From the NCBI GenBank assembly GCA_017302295.1, contig JAFLDS010000017.1, forward strand, positions 1 to 64,000: a DNA stretch of 64,000 bases. Direction: 5' to 3'. The notes beneath the pieces were generated by a model. The model saw only the letters and a program-made list of their open reading frames with translations. It searched no databases and was not told the origin of the DNA. A program made the translations under genes and the position numbers. Of this stretch, positions 51,783 to 62,181 are shown piece by piece. This stretch comes from Thauera sp. Lineage in GTDB: Bacteria; Pseudomonadota; Gammaproteobacteria; Burkholderiales; Rhodocyclaceae. How positions within the stretch are numbered: the stretch's first letter is position 1; the number at the start of each line of letters is the position of its first letter.

Positions 51783-54700
51783 ATGACTGACCTCAGCGTT
51801 GCCCACAAGCTCTCGCCCTACAAGCCGAAGAACAAGGTGCGTTTCGTCACCGCGGCGGCGCTGTTCGACGGCCACGATGCGTCGATCAACATCATGCGCC
51901 GCATCCTGCAGTCGACCGGCTCGGAGGTCATTCACCTGGGCCACAACCGTTCGGTGGGCGAGATCGTCAATGCCGCGCTGCAGGAAGACGTGCAGGGCAT
52001 CGCCATCACCAGCTACCAGGGCGGTCACGTCGAGTTCTTCAAGTACATGATCGATCTGCTGAAGGCCAACGGCGGCGAGAACATCAAGGTCTTCGGCGGC
52101 GGCGGCGGCGTGATCGTGCCGGCCGAAATCCGCGAGCTGCACGACTACGGCGTGACCCACATCTTCTCGCCCGAAGACGGGGCCAAGATGGGCCTGCAGG
52201 GCATGATCAACAGCGTGGTCGAGCGCTGCGATGTCGATGTCACCCAGGCTGCGCCGCAAAAGGCCGACGCGGTGCTGAAGGCACTCGCCCAGGGCGACCG
52301 CCGTGCGCTGGCGCAGATCATCACCGCGCTGGAAAACGGCGGCTATGGCGACGACGTCAAGAAGGCGCTGATCGACGCCGCGGCCAAGACCAAGGTGCCG
52401 ACGCTGGGCATCACCGGCACCGGCGGCGCGGGCAAGTCCTCGCTGACCGACGAGCTGGTGCGCCGCTTCCGCCTCGACCAGCACGACAAGCTCAAGCTCG
52501 CCATCGTCTCCATCGACCCGTCGCGCAAGCGCACTGGCGGCGCGCTGCTGGGTGACCGCATCCGCATGAACGCGATCGAGCACGACAACATCTACATGCG
52601 CTCGCTCGCCACCCGCGACACCGGCTCGGAAGTGTCGGCCGCGCTGCCGGAAGTCATCGCCGCGTGCAAGCTGGCGGGCTTCGACCTGGTCATCGTCGAG
52701 ACCTCGGGTATCGGCCAGGGGAATGCCGCGATCGTGCCCTTCGTCGATCTGTCGCTGTACGTGATGACGCCGGAGTTCGGCGCCGCCAGCCAGCTCGAAA
52801 AGATCGACATGCTCGACTTTGCAGACTTCGTCGCGATCAACAAGTTCGACCGCAAGGGCGCCGAGGATGCGCTGCGCGACGTGCGCAAGCAGTACCAGCG
52901 CAACCGCGAGCTGTTCAACCAGAACACGGACGAGATGCCGGTGTTCGGCACCATGGCGGCACGCTTCAACGACGACGGCGTCACCGCCTTGTACCAGGCG
53001 GTGTTGCCGGCGCTGGTCGGCAAGGGACTGAAGGTGGCCAAGAGCGCGCTGCCGGTGGTCAGCGTGAAATCCTCCAGCGCGGGCCGCGCCATCGTTCCGG
53101 CAGACCGTATCCGCTACCTGGCCGAGATCGCCGACACCGTGCGCGGCTACCACAAGCACATCGAACAGCAGGCGCGCGTGGCGCGCGAGCGCCAGTCGCT
53201 GAAGATCGCCAAGGGTCTGTTCGAGCAGTGCGGCAAGGATGCAGGCTCGTTCGATGAACTCATCAACTGGAAGGACGGTGAGCTCACCCCGCAGGCGAAG
53301 AAGTTGCTCGAGCAGTGGCCGACCGAGAAGGCGCTGTATGCGGCCGACGAGTACGTGGTGAAGATCCGTGACAAGGAGATCCGTACCCAGCTCACCCACA
53401 CCTCGCTGTCGGGCAGCAAGATCCGCAAGGTGGCGCTGCCCAACTTCGACGACGAGGGCGAGACGCTCAAGTTCCTGATGAAGGAAAACGTCCCTGGCTC
53501 CTTCCCCTACACCGCCGGCGTGTTCGCCTTCAAGCGCGAGGGCGAGGACCCCACCCGCATGTTCGCCGGCGAAGGCGACGCCTTCCGCACCAACCGCCGT
53601 TTCAAGAAGGTTTCAGAAGGCATGCCGGCGCACCGCCTTTCCACCGCCTTCGACTCGGTGACGCTGTACGGCTGCGACCCCGATCTGCGTCCGGACATCT
53701 ACGGCAAGATCGGCAACTCCGGCGTGTCGATCGCCACGCTCGACGACATGAAGGTGCTGTACGACGGCTTCGACCTGTGCGCGCCGAGCACCTCGGTGTC
53801 GATGACGATCAACGGCCCGGCGCCGATCATCCTCGCCTTCTTCTTCAACACCGCGCTCGACCAGCAGCTCGCAAAGTTCAAGGCCGACAACGGCCGCGAG
53901 CCGACCGCCGACGAGCACGCCAAGATCAAGGCGTGGACACTGTCCACCGTGCGCGGCACGGTGCAGGCGGACATCCTGAAGGAAGACCAGGGTCAGAACA
54001 CCTGCATCTTCAGCACCGAGTTCGCGCTGAAGATGATGGGCGACATCCAGGCTTACTTCGTCCACAACAAGGTGCAGAACTTCTACTCGGTGTCGATCTC
54101 CGGCTATCACATCGCCGAGGCCGGCGCGAACCCGATCAGCCAGCTCGCCTTCACGCTGTCCAACGGTTTCACCTACGTCGAGAGCTACCTGGCCCGTGGC
54201 ATGCACATCGACGACTTCGCGCCCAACCTGAGCTTCTTCTTCAGCAACGGCATGGACCCGGAATACTCGGTGATCGGCCGCGTCGCCCGCCGCATCTGGG
54301 CGGTGGCGATGAAGAACAAGTACGGCGCCAACGAGCGCAGCCAGAAGCTGAAGTACCACGTGCAGACCTCCGGCCGCTCGCTGCACGCGCAGGAGATGGA
54401 CTTCAACGATATTCGTACGACCCTGCAGGCGCTGATCGCGATCTACGACAACTGCAACTCGCTGCACACCAACGCCTACGACGAGGCGATCACCACGCCG
54501 ACCGAAGAAAGCGTGCGGCGCGCGATGGCGATCCAGTTGATCATCAACCGCGAGTGGGGCCTGGCGAAGAACGAGAACCCCAACCAGGGCGCCTTCATCA
54601 TCGAGGAGCTCACCGACCTCGTCGAAGAAGCCGTGCTCAAGGAGTTCGAGGCTATCGCCTCCCGCGGCGGCGTGCTCGGCGCGATGGAGACCGGCTACCA

Positions 54701-55049
54701 GCGCGGCAAGATTCAGGAGGAGTCGCTCTACTACGAGCACAAGAAGCACGACGGCTCCTACCCGATCATCGGTGTGAACACCTTCCTCAACCCGAAGGGA
54801 CAGGCGCAGCAGGAGATCGAGCTGGCGCGCTCGACCGAGGAAGAGAAGCAGGGCCAGTTGAAGCGCCTGGCCGACTTCCACGCCCGCAACCAGGCCGAGG
54901 CGCCGAAGTGGCAGGCCAGGCTGCAGCAGGCCGTCATCGACAATGCCAACGTGTTCGAGGTGCTGGTGGATGCGGTGCGCTACTGCTCGCTGGGCCAGAT
55001 CACCGAGGCGCTGTACAAGGTGGGCGGCCAGTACCGGCGCAGCATGTGA
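51783..55049 (+). CDS. icmF: IcmF: fused isobutyryl-CoA mutase / GTPase
   Basis: 1088 residues with the three-part layout of IcmF. B12-binding domain first (about 15-140, '[15 protein letters not shown]', '[18 protein letters not shown]', '[12 protein letters not shown]'), then a MeaB-like GTPase (about 190-460, Walker A '[17 protein letters not shown]', '[23 protein letters not shown]', 'VETSGIGQG', 'INKFDRKG'), then the substrate-binding mutase barrel (about 520-1080, '[36 protein letters not shown]'). It interconverts isobutyryl-CoA and n-butyryl-CoA (some forms act on isovaleryl/pivalyl-CoA), carrying its own chaperone. It sits beside an AraC regulator. The strong ribosome site GAAGGAG precedes the start. 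Confidence 0.95.
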
Positions 55050-55070
55050 GCGGAATCCGGCTCGGGTAAT

Positions 55071-55099
55071 TGGAAACGGCGCCCAAAGCGCCGTTTCCA
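55071..55099. terminator. Bidirectional hairpin between icmF and the depolymerase gene
   Basis: GGAAACGGCGC-CCAAA-GCGCCGTTTCC: perfect 11-bp stem between convergent stops. Bases after it are only mildly T-rich (ATTGTGCATT), but the place fits a shared transcription end. Confidence 0.6.
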
Positions 55100-55127
55100 T
55101 TGTGCATTCGGGCTTTGCCGCCGATGC

Positions 55128-56243
55128 TCAGCGCGGAGTCCCTGCGGCGAGCGCGTCGATCATGGCCCGCAAGGTCTTGATCTGCACACCGTTCTTCGTC
55201 GCGTAGTCGTCGCCGGTGTAGCCCCACCAGTCCCAGCAACCGTTGGGGTTGCGGAACGGGATGGAGACCGCCTGCGGGTAGAGCACGACGATGTTGTTGT
55301 TGTCCGCCCAGCGGTCGTAGCCGGTGTTCTTCACGAACAGCGTGCCATTGTAGAGCCCGCCACCCGGTGGCGGACGCAGCGGCAGGTAGCTCTGGCCCTG
55401 CTTGCAGCCGTGCAGCGCGATATGAACGCGGCACGGCTGGCCCTTGGCGCAGCTCTCCGGAACGTAGGCCCAGCCGGTCTTGTCCAGCCCGGTGCTCCAG
55501 CTGAAGAAGCCGCGGTTTTCGGCAGGAAGGTAAGCGCTCTGGTCGAACTCGATGAAGCGGCCGGCCGGCTTGCTGCCCGGCGGCTTCAGCGGGCCATAGA
55601 TCCAGCTCAGGATCTGGCCGGCGCTATCGAAGCCGCACTTCCCGATGTAGGGCTCGGTCTCCTTGCTGCAGGCGATGCCGAAGTTGGATGTGGGCATCGT
55701 GTGTGCGGCGTCGGCGAGGCGCACGGGAGACAGATTGGCGGCAGGCACGCCAACTGCGGCATAGAAGGCGGCGAGCTGGTCGGCGATGGTCGGCGGCACC
55801 AGGGTGTCCTTCGTCCCCGACACGGTGAGAATGCGGTCGCTGGCCAGGTCCGCAACGGGGTCGATGAGCCCCTTTGCCGCCATGGCTTTGGCTTCCGCGG
55901 CCAGGCCCGGCGCATTCGCGCTGGTCGGCGTGACCTTGCACGATACCGCCGGCTCGCCGGTGCACGAGCACTGCGCTACTGCCCGCATCACGTCGCCCTG
56001 CGAACAGTTGTACGGCCCGCCGGCGACAACGCCCGCGCCCTTGACGATGGACGAGTGCGCCACCTGGAACTGTACGGTCATGAAGCCGCCGGACGAGATT
56101 CCGGATACCGAGGTCTGGTTGATGTCGATGTTCAGCGCGGGCAGTGGTGGGGCGGCCTGGGCTACAAGCGGCGAAGCACTGACAAGTATGGCGAGGCTGA
56201 GCATGAGAGCCTGGCGTTCGGGTCGAAAGAAATGGGTCGGCAT
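55128..56243 (-). CDS. Secreted PHB-depolymerase-like esterase
   Basis: 371 residues, start ATG 56243 with GGAG upstream. Signal peptide ends 'PLVAQAAPP'. The alpha/beta-hydrolase fold has the lipase box GISSGG with nucleophile Ser ('SVSGISSGGFMTVQFQVAHS'), Asp in 'VSGTKDTLVPP' and His in 'DAAHTMPTSNF'. Several Cys pairs and the late 'HIALHGCKQG' fit the extracellular/periplasmic polyhydroxybutyrate depolymerase family. It would release 3-hydroxybutyrate from short-chain polyester or oligomers outside the cytoplasm. No separate substrate-binding domain is seen. The substrate is inferred from family. Confidence 0.85.
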   Translation of the reverse strand: MPTHFFRPERQALMLSLAILVSASPLVAQAAPPLPALNIDINQTSVSGISSGGFMTVQFQVAHSSIVKGAGVVAGGPYNCSQGDVMRAVAQCSCTGEPAVSCKVTPTSANAPGLAAEAKAMAAKGLIDPVADLASDRILTVSGTKDTLVPPTIADQLAAFYAAVGVPAANLSPVRLADAAHTMPTSNFGIACSKETEPYIGKCGFDSAGQILSWIYGPLKPPGSKPAGRFIEFDQSAYLPAENRGFFSWSTGLDKTGWAYVPESCAKGQPCRVHIALHGCKQGQSYLPLRPPPGGGLYNGTLFVKNTGYDRWADNNNIVVLYPQAVSIPFRNPNGCWDWWGYTGDDYATKNGVQIKTLRAMIDALAAGTPR

Positions 56244-56581
56244 GAGATTCTCCAAACTATTGGAATTGCCGTCGCAAGCGATTGCGGTATGCATACTTTC
56301 GGGCATGGCTCATGTTTGAGCGACGGAGTTTTGCGTTGCAAGAGTCTTCGCACGGCGCTTCTGCTGCGTCTGATGTGCACCGCGGCGTTGCCACATCATG
56401 CACCAACGTCGATGTCAGTTGGAAGTCACCGGGCGACAGGCCGTTGGTCAAGGAAGCGTCACCTCAGGGCTCTGTCGCGGAGCGCCGGCGGAGCGCGCGA
56501 TGTGGAGCGACAACAAGTCTCAATTCAGATAGCCAAATTGGCTAGCGATGCTAGATTGAAGACATCCGGGAGGTGCAGCCC
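56244..56581. other. Intergenic region upstream of the TIR-SIR2 operon
   Basis: 338 bases with no supported gene, carrying the divergent promoters of the esterase and the defence-like operon. Two perfect inverted repeats lie close to the operon start and are listed separately. A GGGAGG ribosome site (56568-56573) fixes the operon's first start at ATG 56582. Confidence 0.5.
56531..56554. promoter_or_regulatory. Twin inverted repeats before the TIR-SIR2 operon
   Basis: AGCCAA-A-TTGGCT (56531-56543) directly overlaps CTAGC-GAT-GCTAG (56542-56554). Both are perfect and lie 28-51 bp before the first start of the operon. They look like operator sites for a dimeric regulator; no regulator gene is adjacent. 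Confidence 0.45.
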
Positions 56582-58192
56582 ATGGGTGAGAGTGCTTCCG
56601 GCGAAGTCCGCCGGAACGATTTCGATGTATTCATCAGCTACAACTCGCGAAATGCTGAGATTGTTCGGCGCATCGCAGAACATCTGCGTGACACCGAGAA
56701 GTTGCGCGTCTGGCTGGACGATTGGTGTCTCGATCCCGGCCTCCCGTGGATGGACGGTCTCTATAAGGGGCTGAGGGCCAGCGCTTCAGTTGCGGTGTTC
56801 GTGGGTCCGGATGGGTTGGGCGATTGGCAGGCGCCCGAGCTTCAGGTAGCGCTAAACAATCAGGTCAAAAGTGGCAAGAGAGTCATTCCCGTGCTGTTAC
56901 CTGGTGCGCCGGCACCCGAGAAGCTGCCCGATTTTCTGACCTTGCTCAAAGCCGTCGTGTTTCGCGACGGCCCCGATGACGCAAGTGCGCGCGGGAGGCT
57001 GGTCTGGGGTATCACGGGCATCAATCCGCTTGCCAGAGTTACTCAAGGCGACAATCGGGCCCCGATGGTCGAAGTGGCGGGTCGTGTCGAGGATCCTCTG
57101 GATGCTGCGGAAGGAGCGCTTGCCGATGCGCTCGAAAACGGGAGTGTCACGTTCCTGGTTGGCCGCTTTGCGGGGAGTGCGGAGGCGCAATCTCCGCCGT
57201 CGCCAAGATCTTTGAGCGAGGCCATGCTCAGAGATCTCAAGTTGCTGCCCGACAACTACGATGGGATGGTTCCGGGGGTCGAGGCGGCGGCGGCATTGCT
57301 CGCTACCGAACGCAGCGATCCTGGCATGGAACGGCGAGTCATCGATCTCCTGGCCAGTTTCAATGTTGCACAGCCGGCGGGGGTCCATGGGGCGCTGGCC
57401 GACTTGATGCGGGTGCTGCAGCATAAGCCGCCGCCTCGAGCCAATCGGCGGGTTCCTCGATTGATCCTGACTACGAGTTTCGATCTATGCCTTGAACGAG
57501 CCCTGCTACGGGCCGGCCTGTCATTTTCCCGTCTGGTGCATCACCGTGCTGGCGGTCGCATCGATGTCAACGTTTTCCAGGATGTGAAGCGGATCGACGC
57601 CGCTCACGTACTCATCAACGGCCAGCTTGTCGATGTGGCCGACGTGGCACTGCTCGACAAGCAGATCTACGACTGCGATCAGCGCAGCGTCCGTCTTCAG
57701 GATTCGGGCATGGATCCTGGAAGGCCCGACAATCCGCTTGCATCACTGCTTGTACGAGATCTTCCCGATCCGATCCTTTACAAGTTTCAGGGATCCCGGG
57801 ACATCGACAACTCGTCGGCTATTTCCGCCGATCAGTGTTTCGATTTTCTATGGCGCCTTCTGCGACAGCGTTGCATACCGAGTCAGATCGCCGAGATCAT
57901 CGCATCTTCCACTTTGCTGGTAATAGGCAGCAATCTGCTCGACTATGATTTTCGCCTGACCTACCACACCCTCTTGCGCGAGCAGTTGGAGATCAATCCC
58001 AATCCGCATTACGCGGTTGTTTGCCGCGGTGAGCTGGACCGCCGCGACTATGGGCACAAATTGACGGAAACGGCGTGGGGGAAGGTGAAGCAGGTTGCCA
58101 TGAGCAAGTACCGCATGGAGCTCCTCGACGTGGCCACGGCGCCTTTGCTGGCGCGGGTCGCGGCGAGACTCGGGCGGCGGTGGGGGGCATAA
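56582..58192 (+). CDS. TIR-SIR2 fusion protein (degenerate SIR2)
   Basis: 536 residues. TIR domain at 12-115: 'FDVFISYNSRNAEIVRRIAEHL', 'RVWLDDWCLDPGLPWMDGL' and 'DWQAPELQVAL', placing the likely NADase glutamate at Glu86. From about residue 190 follows a SIR2-like domain recognisable by 'LILTTSFDLCLERAL', 'ILYKFQGS' and 'LLVIGSNLLDYDFRL'. In active bacterial SIR2 NADases these read TTNxD and KLHG; here the Asn is Ser and the His is Gln, and the glycine loop (VGRFAGSA) is irregular. So the TIR part may be the active NADase and the SIR2 part a sensor or scaffold. First gene of a three-gene operon, 4 bp before the NTPase gene. Anti-phage function is inferred from the domain types. Confidence 0.85.
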   Translation: MGESASGEVRRNDFDVFISYNSRNAEIVRRIAEHLRDTEKLRVWLDDWCLDPGLPWMDGLYKGLRASASVAVFVGPDGLGDWQAPELQVALNNQVKSGKRVIPVLLPGAPAPEKLPDFLTLLKAVVFRDGPDDASARGRLVWGITGINPLARVTQGDNRAPMVEVAGRVEDPLDAAEGALADALENGSVTFLVGRFAGSAEAQSPPSPRSLSEAMLRDLKLLPDNYDGMVPGVEAAAALLATERSDPGMERRVIDLLASFNVAQPAGVHGALADLMRVLQHKPPPRANRRVPRLILTTSFDLCLERALLRAGLSFSRLVHHRAGGRIDVNVFQDVKRIDAAHVLINGQLVDVADVALLDKQIYDCDQRSVRLQDSGMDPGRPDNPLASLLVRDLPDPILYKFQGSRDIDNSSAISADQCFDFLWRLLRQRCIPSQIAEIIASSTLLVIGSNLLDYDFRLTYHTLLREQLEINPNPHYAVVCRGELDRRDYGHKLTETAWGKVKQVAMSKYRMELLDVATAPLLARVAARLGRRWGA

Positions 58193-58196
58193 GGCG

Positions 58197-60224
58197 ATGA
58201 ACCTGAACACTGCTGCCATCGGAGGTGTTGATGCTCCTGCCGGGAGCAGTCCGTTCGACAAACCTTACAAGGGGGCGGACAGCTATCAGGTCGAGGATTC
58301 AGCATTGTTCTACGGGCGAAATGCCGAATCGGAGCAGGTCGTCGCACGCATACTTTCATCCCGCTTCACGCTCCTGCATGCCCAGTCCGGTGCAGGGAAG
58401 ACGTCCCTCATCAATGCCCGAATCATTCCGGGGCTAGAGCAGCGTGACTGGCTGCCGGTTCGGATCCGTCCGGAAAACGATCCCATTGCGGCAACGCGCA
58501 ATGCCACCTTGCGCTACCTCATTCCGCCGCCGGATGCGGAAGTGCTGGCGATAAGGCGCGCGCTCGACCTGCTGCAACTCGACGAGCACCAGACCACGAT
58601 TGCGGATCTGCTATCCCGATACGACGAACTGGCGACGCGGGATCCGAGGAAACGGCAGATCATCGCGCCGATCGAGTCCGACACCCTCGAAGCCCGATAT
58701 CCGCTGATCGGCAAGGGCGCCCTGACGCCGTACACCTGTCGGGTGATTCGCGGTAGCCTCGATCTCGCGCGGCCATCCGAGCAATGGAGGCTCGTGCTCG
58801 AATTGGCTTCCACCATCCTGGAGGCTCCGAGCACGCTTTCGGACGATCTGTTGTTGACTCAGGTGCTGTCGGTGCTCGAATCGGATACGTATCAGTCCGC
58901 CTATCGCACCCTGCTCGGCTATCTTGATCCGCCGGGCGACAGGAGCCTGTGCAACTTCTTCGACAACCTCATTCAGGTGTATGGGTCGCGGCTCGTTCGC
59001 TTCGGCATCGTATTGATCTTCGATCAGTTCGAAGAGGTCTTCACCCGATTCGTCGATCCCGGGGCAGCAGGCAAGGCTGCAGGCGACCTTGCGGACTGGC
59101 GATTGCGCTGGGAACTGCTCGACGAACTGAAGCAGCTCTACGCCTATCGCACGTCCGGCCTGGGGCCGCCGGCGCCGCTGCCGATCCGCTTCGTCGTCTC
59201 AATGCGAAGCGAGTACATGGCGGGGCTGGAGCCTCTACGCGCGAGCGTGCCGGCCCTGGATCAATGTTCGTATCACCTGCAGATGCTGAGCGTGGACCAG
59301 GCCAGCCGGGCGATCAAGGCACCGGCCGCAGACTTCGGTTATGGCTATGCGCAGGACTGTTACGATCGGATCGTTGCGGACTTGACCAAAGAGGAGCGTT
59401 TCGTCGAGCCCGCTCACCTGCAGGTGGTTTGCGACTATCTCTGGAACGAGAAAGGGCGCGAACTCTCAGGCGCCGTCGATGCGCCGGATCGCTCGATTTC
59501 ACGTGAAGTGAAACTCGCGGTCTATGAGGAAAGCAAGGGCTTGAGCGGCATCATGCGCGCTTTCCTGTGGGGCTACCTGAATGGACTTGAGCAGGGCGAG
59601 CGCTTCGAAACGCTCGAGATGCTCGAGCGGCTGATCACGACCAGTAACACGCGCAACATCGTCGAGCAGGAATCGTTGACCAATGCGCCGCTGCGCGACG
59701 ACAGGCGGCGCCGCAATTTGCTCGACCAACTCATCGTTCGGGGAATCGTTCGAACGGAGAGTCGGTTGGGCGGGCGTTTTGTCGAGATCACCCACGAATT
59801 CCTCATCCCTCCGGTCATGGAGGCCATTCGCGATGTTCTGCTTGCCGATCCCGCGCAGCGACAGTTCCTGCACGCTCTAGACGCATTGAGGCGCATTCAG
59901 CAGCAAGGCAGCGGTGCGGACGATACGCTGCTTTCCTGGGAGTTCGAGATCCTCGACCGCTTTCGCACCCAGATCGAATGGCCGGAGTGGGCCATGCGCG
60001 CAATGCTGCGCAATGCGGTGCTGCACGAAGCGGGCGGCGAAACGCTGCGGCATTGGGTTGCGCGGGTGGACGAAGGAGACCTGCAGAAGGTCTCGACGCC
60101 GCCCGCGGTGGTCGAGTCATCTGCGGAGTCGTCGTTGCGGGGGCTCGATACCACGAGCTTGAAGGATATTGGGGCTGGAGCCCGTGACGCCGTGGATGCG
60201 ACAGCGGGAGTCGAACATGCATGA
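58197..60224 (+). CDS. nSTAND-like P-loop NTPase
   Basis: 675 residues. After a 30-residue lead comes 'SALFYGRNAESEQVVARILSSRFTLLHAQSGAGKTSLINARIIPGL' with Walker A at 63-70. Walker B is 'IVLIFDQFEEVFTRF' near 272-282, and 'IRFVVSMRSEYMAGLEPL' is the sensor-like strand. This is the layout of novel-STAND (nSTAND1-type) NTPases, signal-controlled switches in bacterial conflict systems. A winged-helix and helical region follows (about 430-675), without obvious repeats for ligand capture. It is encoded 4 bp after the TIR-SIR2 gene and overlaps the membrane-protein gene by 8 bp, so the three products are made together and may form one complex. Confidence 0.82.
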   Translation: MNLNTAAIGGVDAPAGSSPFDKPYKGADSYQVEDSALFYGRNAESEQVVARILSSRFTLLHAQSGAGKTSLINARIIPGLEQRDWLPVRIRPENDPIAATRNATLRYLIPPPDAEVLAIRRALDLLQLDEHQTTIADLLSRYDELATRDPRKRQIIAPIESDTLEARYPLIGKGALTPYTCRVIRGSLDLARPSEQWRLVLELASTILEAPSTLSDDLLLTQVLSVLESDTYQSAYRTLLGYLDPPGDRSLCNFFDNLIQVYGSRLVRFGIVLIFDQFEEVFTRFVDPGAAGKAAGDLADWRLRWELLDELKQLYAYRTSGLGPPAPLPIRFVVSMRSEYMAGLEPLRASVPALDQCSYHLQMLSVDQASRAIKAPAADFGYGYAQDCYDRIVADLTKEERFVEPAHLQVVCDYLWNEKGRELSGAVDAPDRSISREVKLAVYEESKGLSGIMRAFLWGYLNGLEQGERFETLEMLERLITTSNTRNIVEQESLTNAPLRDDRRRRNLLDQLIVRGIVRTESRLGGRFVEITHEFLIPPVMEAIRDVLLADPAQRQFLHALDALRRIQQQGSGADDTLLSWEFEILDRFRTQIEWPEWAMRAMLRNAVLHEAGGETLRHWVARVDEGDLQKVSTPPAVVESSAESSLRGLDTTSLKDIGAGARDAVDATAGVEHA

Positions 60225-61782
60225 AACGGCGCTCAAGATTGTCGACCGCTTCGTGAATTCTCCCCGGGCCGAGGAGCGCGGAAAGGGATTCCGGGCGCTC
60301 GGGCATCTCGGATCGGCGGCGGCCGCGGGCAGGCTTGTCGATGCCGCGCTTTCTGATCCCGACCCCGACCTGCGAGCCGAGGCCGAAGCCATCCTTGCCC
60401 GGGAGGCGGAGCAGCCGGCGGTACGCGATGCCTTGTTGCGACGGCTGGACACGCCAGCCGATCGGCGTCGCGTTTACGCAATGCTGGGCCGACTGCGCCT
60501 GCGCGGAGCGTCGCTCGCATTCGACCTGGGCGGCTGGTGGGTGCGCCTTGTCGCCTCGCTGATCGTGGTGGATCAGTTCCGGCGCGACATGGGCTGGCAT
60601 TTCTGGGTGAGAGGGATGCGGCCCTGCGTTCTCGGGGCAATACTGGGAGGGATTGCCGGGTGGCAGGTTTTTGAGGCACTGGACCTCGGAGCGAGCGAAA
60701 CCTTCCTCTTGGGTTTCGCGCTGAGCGCCGTTACCTTCGCGATCGGGGTCTGGTCCATGCCGCTTCGGCTTCATTACGACCGGGCGGCCGCCCTGGTGAG
60801 CAGCACGCTGGTTCCGGCCATTCTCGCTGTGGGGCTGACATTCTGGATTTCGAGTTTCGAGTCCGTCGCCAGCCCGTTCACGTTGGGCATTGCCGCACTC
60901 TTCGTCGCGGTGATCAGGCTGGCGGTTGCCCTGGTCAGCGACGGAATTCCTTCCGTCAATATGGACGCGTTCATCACGACACTGGTCGCGGCTTTGTTTG
61001 GATTACTCGTCTCCGCCGTAGCGATACTTCTATCGGTCTGGGTTTTTACGCCCACCGACTCCGACGCTTGGATGGAGACTTGGGGCCTGTGCTGGAGCTT
61101 TGCCTTTCCGCTGGCAGCGCTGTTCACCTGGCTGGACCGGCTGCCAGCGAAATATCGCGCACTCGTTCCGAATATTCCCGGGCCGCCACGATCGGTCGCA
61201 TCTGCCCGGATCGGACGTGCCACGAGCATTTGCATTCTGTCCACGTCGCTGCTGCTGGCGATCCTCGGGCGCCCGGTTCAGTGGGATGCCACAGGCCGGA
61301 TGGTGTCAGCGGCACTGGCGCCGATCGAGATTACCGGATTCGATACCGCTCAAATCGTCGAATTGTCACGGTATTCGCATGCATTCGAGTTCAAGCTCGG
61401 ACAGCGCGGCGACGTGCAGGTTGAAGCGACGCGGTTGGAAAGCGATCACCTTTCCTACCGCCTCGAGATGGAGGAAATGCAGAAAGAGCAGAAGGGTGGC
61501 AGCGATAGCGCAGTGCCCGGTGTCGCCCGCTACCGCTATGGTTATACACTCCTAAGCGCCGATGAGGCGGCGGCGTCGATATCGACAGGCGTGCTCGAGG
61601 CTCGTAGTTACAAGGCCCACGTATCGGTGTCCCAGATCGAAGTGGAGGGGAGCTACGCGCTGCCACGTCTGCAGAAGCGAATCGCGTACAGGCTTCGCCT
61701 GATCGCACCTCCGGCCTATCCCATTCGGCTGCGGTTTTCCCTGCAGCGACCCGCGCGGCCAGCCGAGCCAGCCGCACCATGA
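60217..61782 (+). CDS. HEAT-like multi-span membrane protein, effector candidate
   Basis: 521 residues from ATG 60217 (GGGAG upstream, 8-bp overlap with the NTPase gene). Residues 1-95 are helical with HEAT-repeat character ('GFRALGHLGSAAAAGRLVDAALSDPDPDLRAEAEAILARE'). About 7-8 membrane segments fill residues 110-365 (for example 'CVLGAILGGIAGWQVFEAL', 'FITTLVAALFGLLVSAVAILLSVWVF'). The last 150 residues are soluble and beta-rich. I do not recognise a named family. As third gene of the TIR-SIR2/NTPase operon it could be the membrane-acting or membrane-sensing component. That role is a hypothesis. Confidence 0.75.
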   Translation: MHETALKIVDRFVNSPRAEERGKGFRALGHLGSAAAAGRLVDAALSDPDPDLRAEAEAILAREAEQPAVRDALLRRLDTPADRRRVYAMLGRLRLRGASLAFDLGGWWVRLVASLIVVDQFRRDMGWHFWVRGMRPCVLGAILGGIAGWQVFEALDLGASETFLLGFALSAVTFAIGVWSMPLRLHYDRAAALVSSTLVPAILAVGLTFWISSFESVASPFTLGIAALFVAVIRLAVALVSDGIPSVNMDAFITTLVAALFGLLVSAVAILLSVWVFTPTDSDAWMETWGLCWSFAFPLAALFTWLDRLPAKYRALVPNIPGPPRSVASARIGRATSICILSTSLLLAILGRPVQWDATGRMVSAALAPIEITGFDTAQIVELSRYSHAFEFKLGQRGDVQVEATRLESDHLSYRLEMEEMQKEQKGGSDSAVPGVARYRYGYTLLSADEAAASISTGVLEARSYKAHVSVSQIEVEGSYALPRLQKRIAYRLRLIAPPAYPIRLRFSLQRPARPAEPAAP

Positions 61783-61823
61783 GTTTGTCGCGCGGTGGCC
61801 ACCAAGTGGCGGTTTCGCGCGGT

Positions 61824-61991
61824 TTACCCCACCAACTCCATCAACTTCGCATAGCCATCCACAACTTCATACTTCATCTGATCCGACGTGATCCCTGGAA
61901 AGAACTTCTGCGCGCAGTCGATCTGCAATTTCTCGATGGTGCGCAGATCCAGTGAGGACATGGAGCCCTTCGTCTCGCCGATGAAGGTCAT
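61824..61991 (-). pseudogene. C-terminal remnant of a restriction endonuclease (type III Res / DEAD-box type)
   Basis: 55 residues ending at the stop 61824 read 'FIGETKGSMSSLDLRTIEKLQIDCAQKFF' and 'MKYEVVDGYAKLMELVG'. By memory this matches the extreme C-terminus of large type III-like restriction endonuclease subunits (xxETKGSxxxxxLRxxExxKIxCAxKxF). The frame extends upstream to 62081, but the first 30 residues are unrelated. The rest of a gene that should be over 2 kb is absent, so this is a deletion scar. It lies between the defence-like operon and the next defence-associated gene. Confidence 0.6.
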
Positions 61992-62181
61992 ATGCTTCAT
62001 CCCCCCTCTCGTCATGGAAGGCGATTGCGCAACGTTATCGTCAGGCAGCGGACCCTGAGCAGGCGGCAACGCCGCGGGCACTAGAGTCCATTTGCCGGCA
62101 GGCCATATACATCAGTCGGGAGATTGGCGACATCGCGGTACGTCGTACCGTGACCCGACTGTTTCACGAGGAGAACCTCTC
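61992..62181. other. Junction between the restriction remnant and the next gene
   Basis: About 190 bases with no supported gene; nothing recognisable apart from the GAGGAG ribosome site (62169-62174) for the downstream gene. It probably includes the breakpoint that removed the restriction gene. Confidence 0.4.

Follow-up and report, generated by a model that had tools for sequence, protein, structure and literature searches.

Investigation of a 64,000-nucleotide stretch of a Thauera sp. genome (assembly GCA_017302295.1, contig JAFLDS010000017.1, positions 1 to 64,000; hereafter the window) revealed three open reading frames (ORFs) on the forward strand at positions 56582-61782, encoding a TIR-SIR2 protein (P1, 56582..58192, 536 amino acids, aa), an nSTAND1 NTPase proposed to act as a switch (P2, 58197..60224, 675 aa) and a HEAT-membrane protein proposed to act as an anchor or sensor (P3, 60217..61782, 521 aa). 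An original prediction, made from the sequence of this DNA, had read these genes as a candidate new defence operon; the ORF calls confirmed its same-strand arrangement, with a gap of 4 bp between P1 and P2 and an overlap of 8 bp between P2 and P3. A scan for promoters and terminators found 0 and 2, respectively, against 1.4 and 4.7 expected.

Regarding P1, both predicted domains were detected with Pfam: a TIR domain (TIR_2, PF13676, E 2.3e-21) at residues 16-140 (56627..57001, forward strand), the proposed effector, and a SIR2_2 match (PF13289, E 2.6e-9) at residues 294-489 (57461..58048, forward strand), a proposed dead adaptor. Alignment places Glu86 (codon 56837..56839, forward strand) at the catalytic position of the TIR domain; this residue, which we take to be the catalytic glutamate of TIR NADases, is kept in 3/3 copies of the operon, those of the window and of two further loci, L037 and L154. 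In the SIR2 half, for which SIR2 motifs had been noted in the original prediction, Ser299 and Gln403 stand in the alignment at the places of the Asn and the His that are presumably the catalytic residues of SIR2 NADases, so that both are lost in the window, and a SIR2 NADase effector of the DSR or ThsA type was rejected on these grounds. Searches of the PDB returned nothing but TIR structures in two cases, two structures at E 0.6 in one and none at E 0.1 in another. Membrane spans, called here and below by our own hydropathy script, were not detected in P1 or P2.

The second gene encodes the expected STAND-like NTPase with a P-loop and a Walker B motif: P2 matches nSTAND1 (PF20703) at E 1.1e-36 and 127.7 bits, with a curated cut-off of 27.1, and this is its sole Pfam match at E 0.001 or better. 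The P-loop residues of the Walker A motif HAQSGAGKTS (residues 61-70, 58377..58406, forward strand) are invariant in alignments A2, A6 and A9, and both Lys68 within SGAGKTS and the DQFEE of the Walker B motif VLIFDQFEE (residues 272-280, 59010..59036, forward strand) are invariant across 44 rows. Relatives of P2 were gathered by a pattern scan of a genome collection, in which six exact 8-residue patterns led to 88 relatives and the best 80 were kept, and 76 ORFs were recovered from the 80 loci; at least one membrane span is present in 65 of the 70 that have at least 550 aa, L037 being among the five without. WD40 matches were found in 13/44 nSTAND1 proteins scanned, these being P2 and 43 relatives chosen by hand from the 76 within a residue limit. 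Most nSTAND1 relatives have a span of their own and 13/44 have WD40, whereas P2 has neither and stops shortly beyond its NTPase region; for this reason P3 is interpreted as supplying the membrane or sensor part that P2 lacks.

For P3 itself, the predicted helical repeats are supported by a HEAT_2 match (E 1.3e-5, 25.8 bits) lying below the Pfam cut-off of 27.7, by a two-row structure model with HEAT-like helical hairpins at residues 1-95 (60217..60501, forward strand), and by the relative at L154, which matches HEAT_2 at E 2.7e-14. In the model, the predicted local distance difference test (pLDDT) is 72-91 in the blocks up to residue 80, 63 and 58 for residues 81-100, and low in the rest, with a mean of 47 for the model. 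The predicted 7-8 spans were reduced to 6 at a strict and 7 at a looser threshold. These spans would also suit two killing arms, in which P2 triggers TIR-dependent loss of NAD+ and P3, acting separately as an effector of the pore type, permeabilises the membrane; two-span SLATT pore proteins are found alongside effectors of the TIR type in further predicted conflict systems (PMC7159879, as far as the available text shows), and the nSTAND1 protein of L032 has, by eye, SLATT-like spans. No known pore family was found above cut-off in P3 with Pfam, PADLOC or NCBIfam, however, and a HEAT front end suits a protein-binding or sensing role equally, which leaves two arms fairly unlikely. Of the two roles that had been offered for the membrane protein, second arm or anchor, the spans of the nSTAND1 relatives favour the latter, and a split-off anchor or sensor would be the simpler explanation.

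The order TIR-SIR2, nSTAND1, HEAT-membrane protein recurs, with overlapping genes, at L037, in an Acidobacteria metagenome-assembled genome (JABFRY010000514.1, genome G693), and at L154 (genome G747), both from one Acidobacteria order. The TIR-SIR2 protein of L037 matches P1 at 34.7% over 518 positions (E 9e-72), its nSTAND1 protein has 41% identity to P2 in the best segment, with P2 residues 2-627 matched, and its HEAT-membrane gene, of which the first 216 residues are present before the contig ends, matches P3 residues 1-202 at 27% over 211 positions (E 4e-5); this contig-end copy is the sole P3 relative found in that genome. L154 has the full operon on one strand, encoding a TIR-SIR2 protein of 568 aa, an nSTAND1 protein of 709 aa (32% over 649 positions against P2, E 2e-68) and a HEAT protein with 7 spans (1046 aa). 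In shuffle controls with 1000 locally shuffled copies each, the score of P1 between the window and L154 was reached 0 times, as were those of the SIR2 part between the window and L154 and between L037 and L154, and those of P3 between the window and L037 and between L037 and L154. The gene order is thus conserved in distant genomes, as had been supposed, although the three copies represent two lineages, since G693 and G747 belong to the same order. A chance gathering of neighbours that form no unit might be argued from the absence of this order in most genomes searched; its recurrence at L037 and L154, where the genes overlap, rules out such clustering to near certainty.

Profile searches of genomes, in which only first-pass candidates were scored, detected relatives of P3 in 1/300 genomes of the window's order and 1/29 of its genus, and the SIR2 part of P1 in 1/369 genomes of its class, in each case the window's own. 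In the same phylum the SIR2 part matched 4/299 genomes, with only the window's own matched across the whole profile; weak matches to the SIR2 profile were those in G996, G1115 and G1187. In the phylum of L037 the SIR2 part had matches in 4/297 genomes, G747 among them, and in the order of G747 the whole-P1 profile matched 3/162 genomes, namely G693, G747 and one through the TIR part only. No relative was detected on viral contigs in three scans, and a fourth gave a single locus, L146, whose match is confined to residues 13-118. Searches of plasmids with tblastn detected no relatives for P3 or the SIR2 part, 41 records for P2, none reaching 80% query coverage, and 6 records for the L037 homolog of P1, covering 23-29% of the query at its TIR end.

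Comparison of the nSTAND1 loci places the window operon as a branch within a broader module, in which a SIR2-like gene, usually fused to TIR and sometimes to CHAT, lies directly upstream of nSTAND1. Among 58 genes directly upstream of nSTAND1, SIR2_2 was detected in 45, TIR_2 in 43 and CHAT in 2 (E 0.01); these comprise 50 genes of at least 280 aa that a distance rule picked out at the 80 loci and 8 added by hand that were already known to hold TIR or SIR2, which biases the tally upward, and the other 22 loci lie outside it. The partner of the SIR2-like part varies between TIR, CHAT and none. The other Acidobacteria SIR2 sites (L155-L158) are directly upstream of an nSTAND1-like gene in 4/4 cases, with CHAT-SIR2 fusions in L155 (2239-4416) and L158 (8046-10073) and SIR2 alone in L156 and L157; the CHAT of L155 and L158 is a protease-type effector replacing TIR. 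L182 has TIR joined directly to nSTAND1, and in L031 a SIR2-like gene and nSTAND1 are accompanied by two HEAT-like genes (these HEAT genes, and the nSTAND1 parts in L182, L187 and L188, were identified by eye). In these pairs, for which no name was found, a SIR2-like gene lies directly upstream of nSTAND1 with the effector swapped, as in the window; unlike the window operon, with its TIR-SIR2 order and separate HEAT-membrane gene, they mostly have the order SIR2-TIR and a span inside the nSTAND1 protein. The claim that the set is new stands in that no named match was found in PADLOC 2023 or in the literature searched, whereas it is not isolated, pairs of SIR2-like/TIR and nSTAND1 genes being common among the nSTAND1 loci fetched.

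Regarding known defence systems, none of the PADLOC 2023 models covers the three-gene set, matches being to single domains only, and no description of the set was found in the literature searched, a search mostly not extending to subscription papers; the statement of the original prediction that no named system has this set therefore holds within these two sources. For the 58 upstream genes, PADLOC (E 1e-10) returned a short-Argonaute TIR model most commonly, with 9 members, and 1 ThsB match. The comparisons that follow refer to the available parts of the cited reports. The nSTAND1 conflict systems (Kaur et al., 2021; PMC8195603) likewise couple nSTAND1 to effectors such as TIR, with a predicted counter-invader role; their STAND NTPases are fused to a lectin-fold (FGS) sensor and to N-terminal adaptors or effectors, while the window has its effector and membrane part in separate genes, with a SIR2-like domain. 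An nSTAND1-FGS conflict system was rejected, P2 matching only nSTAND1 and thus having no C-terminal FGS sensor match. The TIR-NLR, a TIR-STAND-TPR protein that protects Escherichia coli from phages (Rousset et al., 2022; PMC9122126), also combines a TIR effector with a STAND NTPase, and related proteins have SIR2 replacing TIR. It is, however, one polypeptide with TPR, unlike the three genes of the window with their nSTAND1 type, dead SIR2 and HEAT-membrane subunit, and was rejected, no TPR being detected in P1-P3 with Pfam. Avs5 (AVAST type 5; PMC12931631) pairs a SIR2-like effector with a STAND NTPase and is found at membrane-associated sites, but has SIR2 and nSTAND3 in one protein and no TIR; it was rejected because SIR2 and NTPase are in separate genes in the window and the NTPase is of the nSTAND1 type. 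The Swarozyc/DUF4062 system (PMC13174449) uses a TIR-like NADase in phage defence, with no SIR2 or nSTAND1 partner described in the available text; a DUF4062 gene (L154 1131-1874, reverse strand, E 1.7e-15) is located 3.3 kb away from the operon of L154.

In Thoeris, a TIR protein makes the signal for a SIR2 protein (PMC10952713, PMC11204291), and the pairing of TIR and SIR2 in P1 recalls that system. It might accordingly be supposed that a cyclic ADP-ribose signal made by TIR is bound in cis by the SIR2-like part, where a dead SIR2 might retain a nucleotide pocket, and gates P2 or P3. Thoeris, however, consists of two proteins, with a SIR2-SLOG effector in which SIR2 is an active NADase and with no STAND NTPase, and it was rejected for the window: no SLOG or STALD part was detected in P1 with Pfam, and the PADLOC match to ThsB reached only E 0.0078, which makes such gating in cis very improbable.

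The operon lies in a stretch (56158..62177) that is absent from the same-genus genomes G677 and G670, where about 1.5 kb of other DNA is found instead. The flanks align with G677 at 88.9% (53286-56157) and 87.4% (62178-68404), and the breakpoints in G670 are identical; among seven same-genus stretches compared, the match stops near 55.05-55.06 kb in six. The GC content is 0.59-0.65 within the missing stretch and 0.63-0.68 outside. These features fit arrival by transfer, with loss and replacement in the relatives as the alternative. Upstream of the operon lies a PHA depolymerase gene and downstream mhp-type genes (named by eye), and such metabolic flanks could speak for a signalling or cell-fate operon with no anti-phage role. 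The patchy presence of the operon argues against this, as does the recurrence of TIR, SIR2 and STAND parts in tested defence systems (PMC10952713, available text), so that a purely signalling role is judged unlikely.

Inside the missing stretch, between P3 and P4, an 85-aa ORF on the reverse strand (61824-62081) matches RE_endonuc (PF19778, E 1.9e-7) and looks like the remnant of a restriction enzyme. P4 (62182..63522, forward strand), a TPR-S/MAP3K_TRAF_bd protein (Pfam E 8.9e-42 and 5.5e-28), lies outside this stretch and was rejected as a core gene, since G677 and G670 keep it at 91% in the corresponding position although they lack P1-P3; relatives of about 90% identity occur in G670, in G677 and, in pieces, in G680. 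It is retained as a possible accessory because relatives of P4 adjoin nSTAND1 in L088, a TIR/SIR2-nSTAND1 pair in L089 and P3 in L154. Elsewhere in the window's genome (G000:C2), L036 (8482-11352, forward strand) holds another nSTAND1 gene, judged by eye to encode a 956-aa fusion of the TIR-nSTAND1-FGE type and adjoined by a separate TIR-like gene on the opposite strand.

A putative defence role is assigned to an operon whose domains, gene order kept in two lineages, conserved NTPase motifs and TIR glutamate, lost SIR2 site in the window and separate HEAT-membrane protein can be read directly from sequence. It is probably a STAND conflict operon of abortive-infection type that spreads laterally, with P2 as switch, TIR as effector, the SIR2-like part as adaptor and P3 as anchor or sensor. 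In a resting cell P2 would be held off; a trigger, perhaps sensed at the envelope by P3, would cause P2 to bind ATP and oligomerise, and P2 would then gather P1 through its SIR2-like domain and so bring the TIR domains together. The clustered TIR domains would destroy NAD+, and growth would stop before the phage matures. The effector varies beside a constant SIR2-like/nSTAND1 core and the TIR glutamate is kept, which makes it likely that TIR is the effector and that the SIR2 part serves as an adaptor or nucleotide-binding scaffold and not as a killer. Of the original prediction, a single operon holding TIR, SIR2, STAND and HEAT-membrane parts is supported; the NTPase switch and NAD+ depletion by TIR are retained as proposals, and a second killing arm is not favoured.

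Several observations weigh against the proposed scheme. The SIR2 domain of L037 has both catalytic residues and could for that reason be active, and in L154 the Asn is kept while the His is replaced by Tyr, so that the three copies have Asn in 2/3 and His in 1/3. These two loci would accommodate a double NADase, in which SIR2 activity, retained or present in a different form, works alongside that of TIR. Ser299 and Gln403 in the window speak against it, as do the rows of the 58 upstream genes, with N in the Asn column in 3/58 (L037, L046, L090) and H in the His column in 1/58 (L037), counted in one automatic alignment that includes rows without a SIR2 domain; a double NADase is accordingly improbable. 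The degenerate SIR2 domains of L031 and L040 occur without a recognised second effector, which means that SIR2 decay is not strictly tied to effector gain, and a SIR2-alone relative, L189, is surrounded by nitrogen-fixation genes, none of its neighbours being annotated as a STAND gene. Also on this side of the balance are the rarity of the operon in the genomes sampled, with two of three copies in one order; the direct P3 score between the window and L154, which 24/1000 shuffles reached, so that this link rests on L037 and gene position; the P1 structure model from a two-row alignment, uninformative at a mean pLDDT of 36; and the surroundings of the operon, in which Pfam gave only the short ORF with the RE_endonuc match and P4 as possible defence-type neighbours.

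Four SIR2-alone genes adjoining nSTAND1 keep both Asn and His, three in one genome (L156, L157, L187) and one in Nonomuraea (L188). The first three belong to three different SIR2-alone and nSTAND1 pairs of genome G768, in each of which the SIR2 motifs are intact. SIR2 relatives were also found on 59 plasmid records, a minority of which were inspected. More speculatively, a dead sirtuin may have come to link nSTAND1 immune switches in general to exchangeable effectors (TIR, CHAT and others), its SIR2 site decaying after another effector takes over, and the branch in the window may have moved the membrane or sensor part into the HEAT-membrane protein, giving a three-chain NADase complex that reads the envelope; this broader view is tentative.

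If these readings are right, SIR2-like/TIR and nSTAND1 genes would add a family of immune switches in bacteria for which no name was found, and would offer a naturally occurring series leading from enzyme domain to dead adaptor once another effector joins, and the three-gene branch would allow membrane sensing via a separate STAND subunit to be probed directly.

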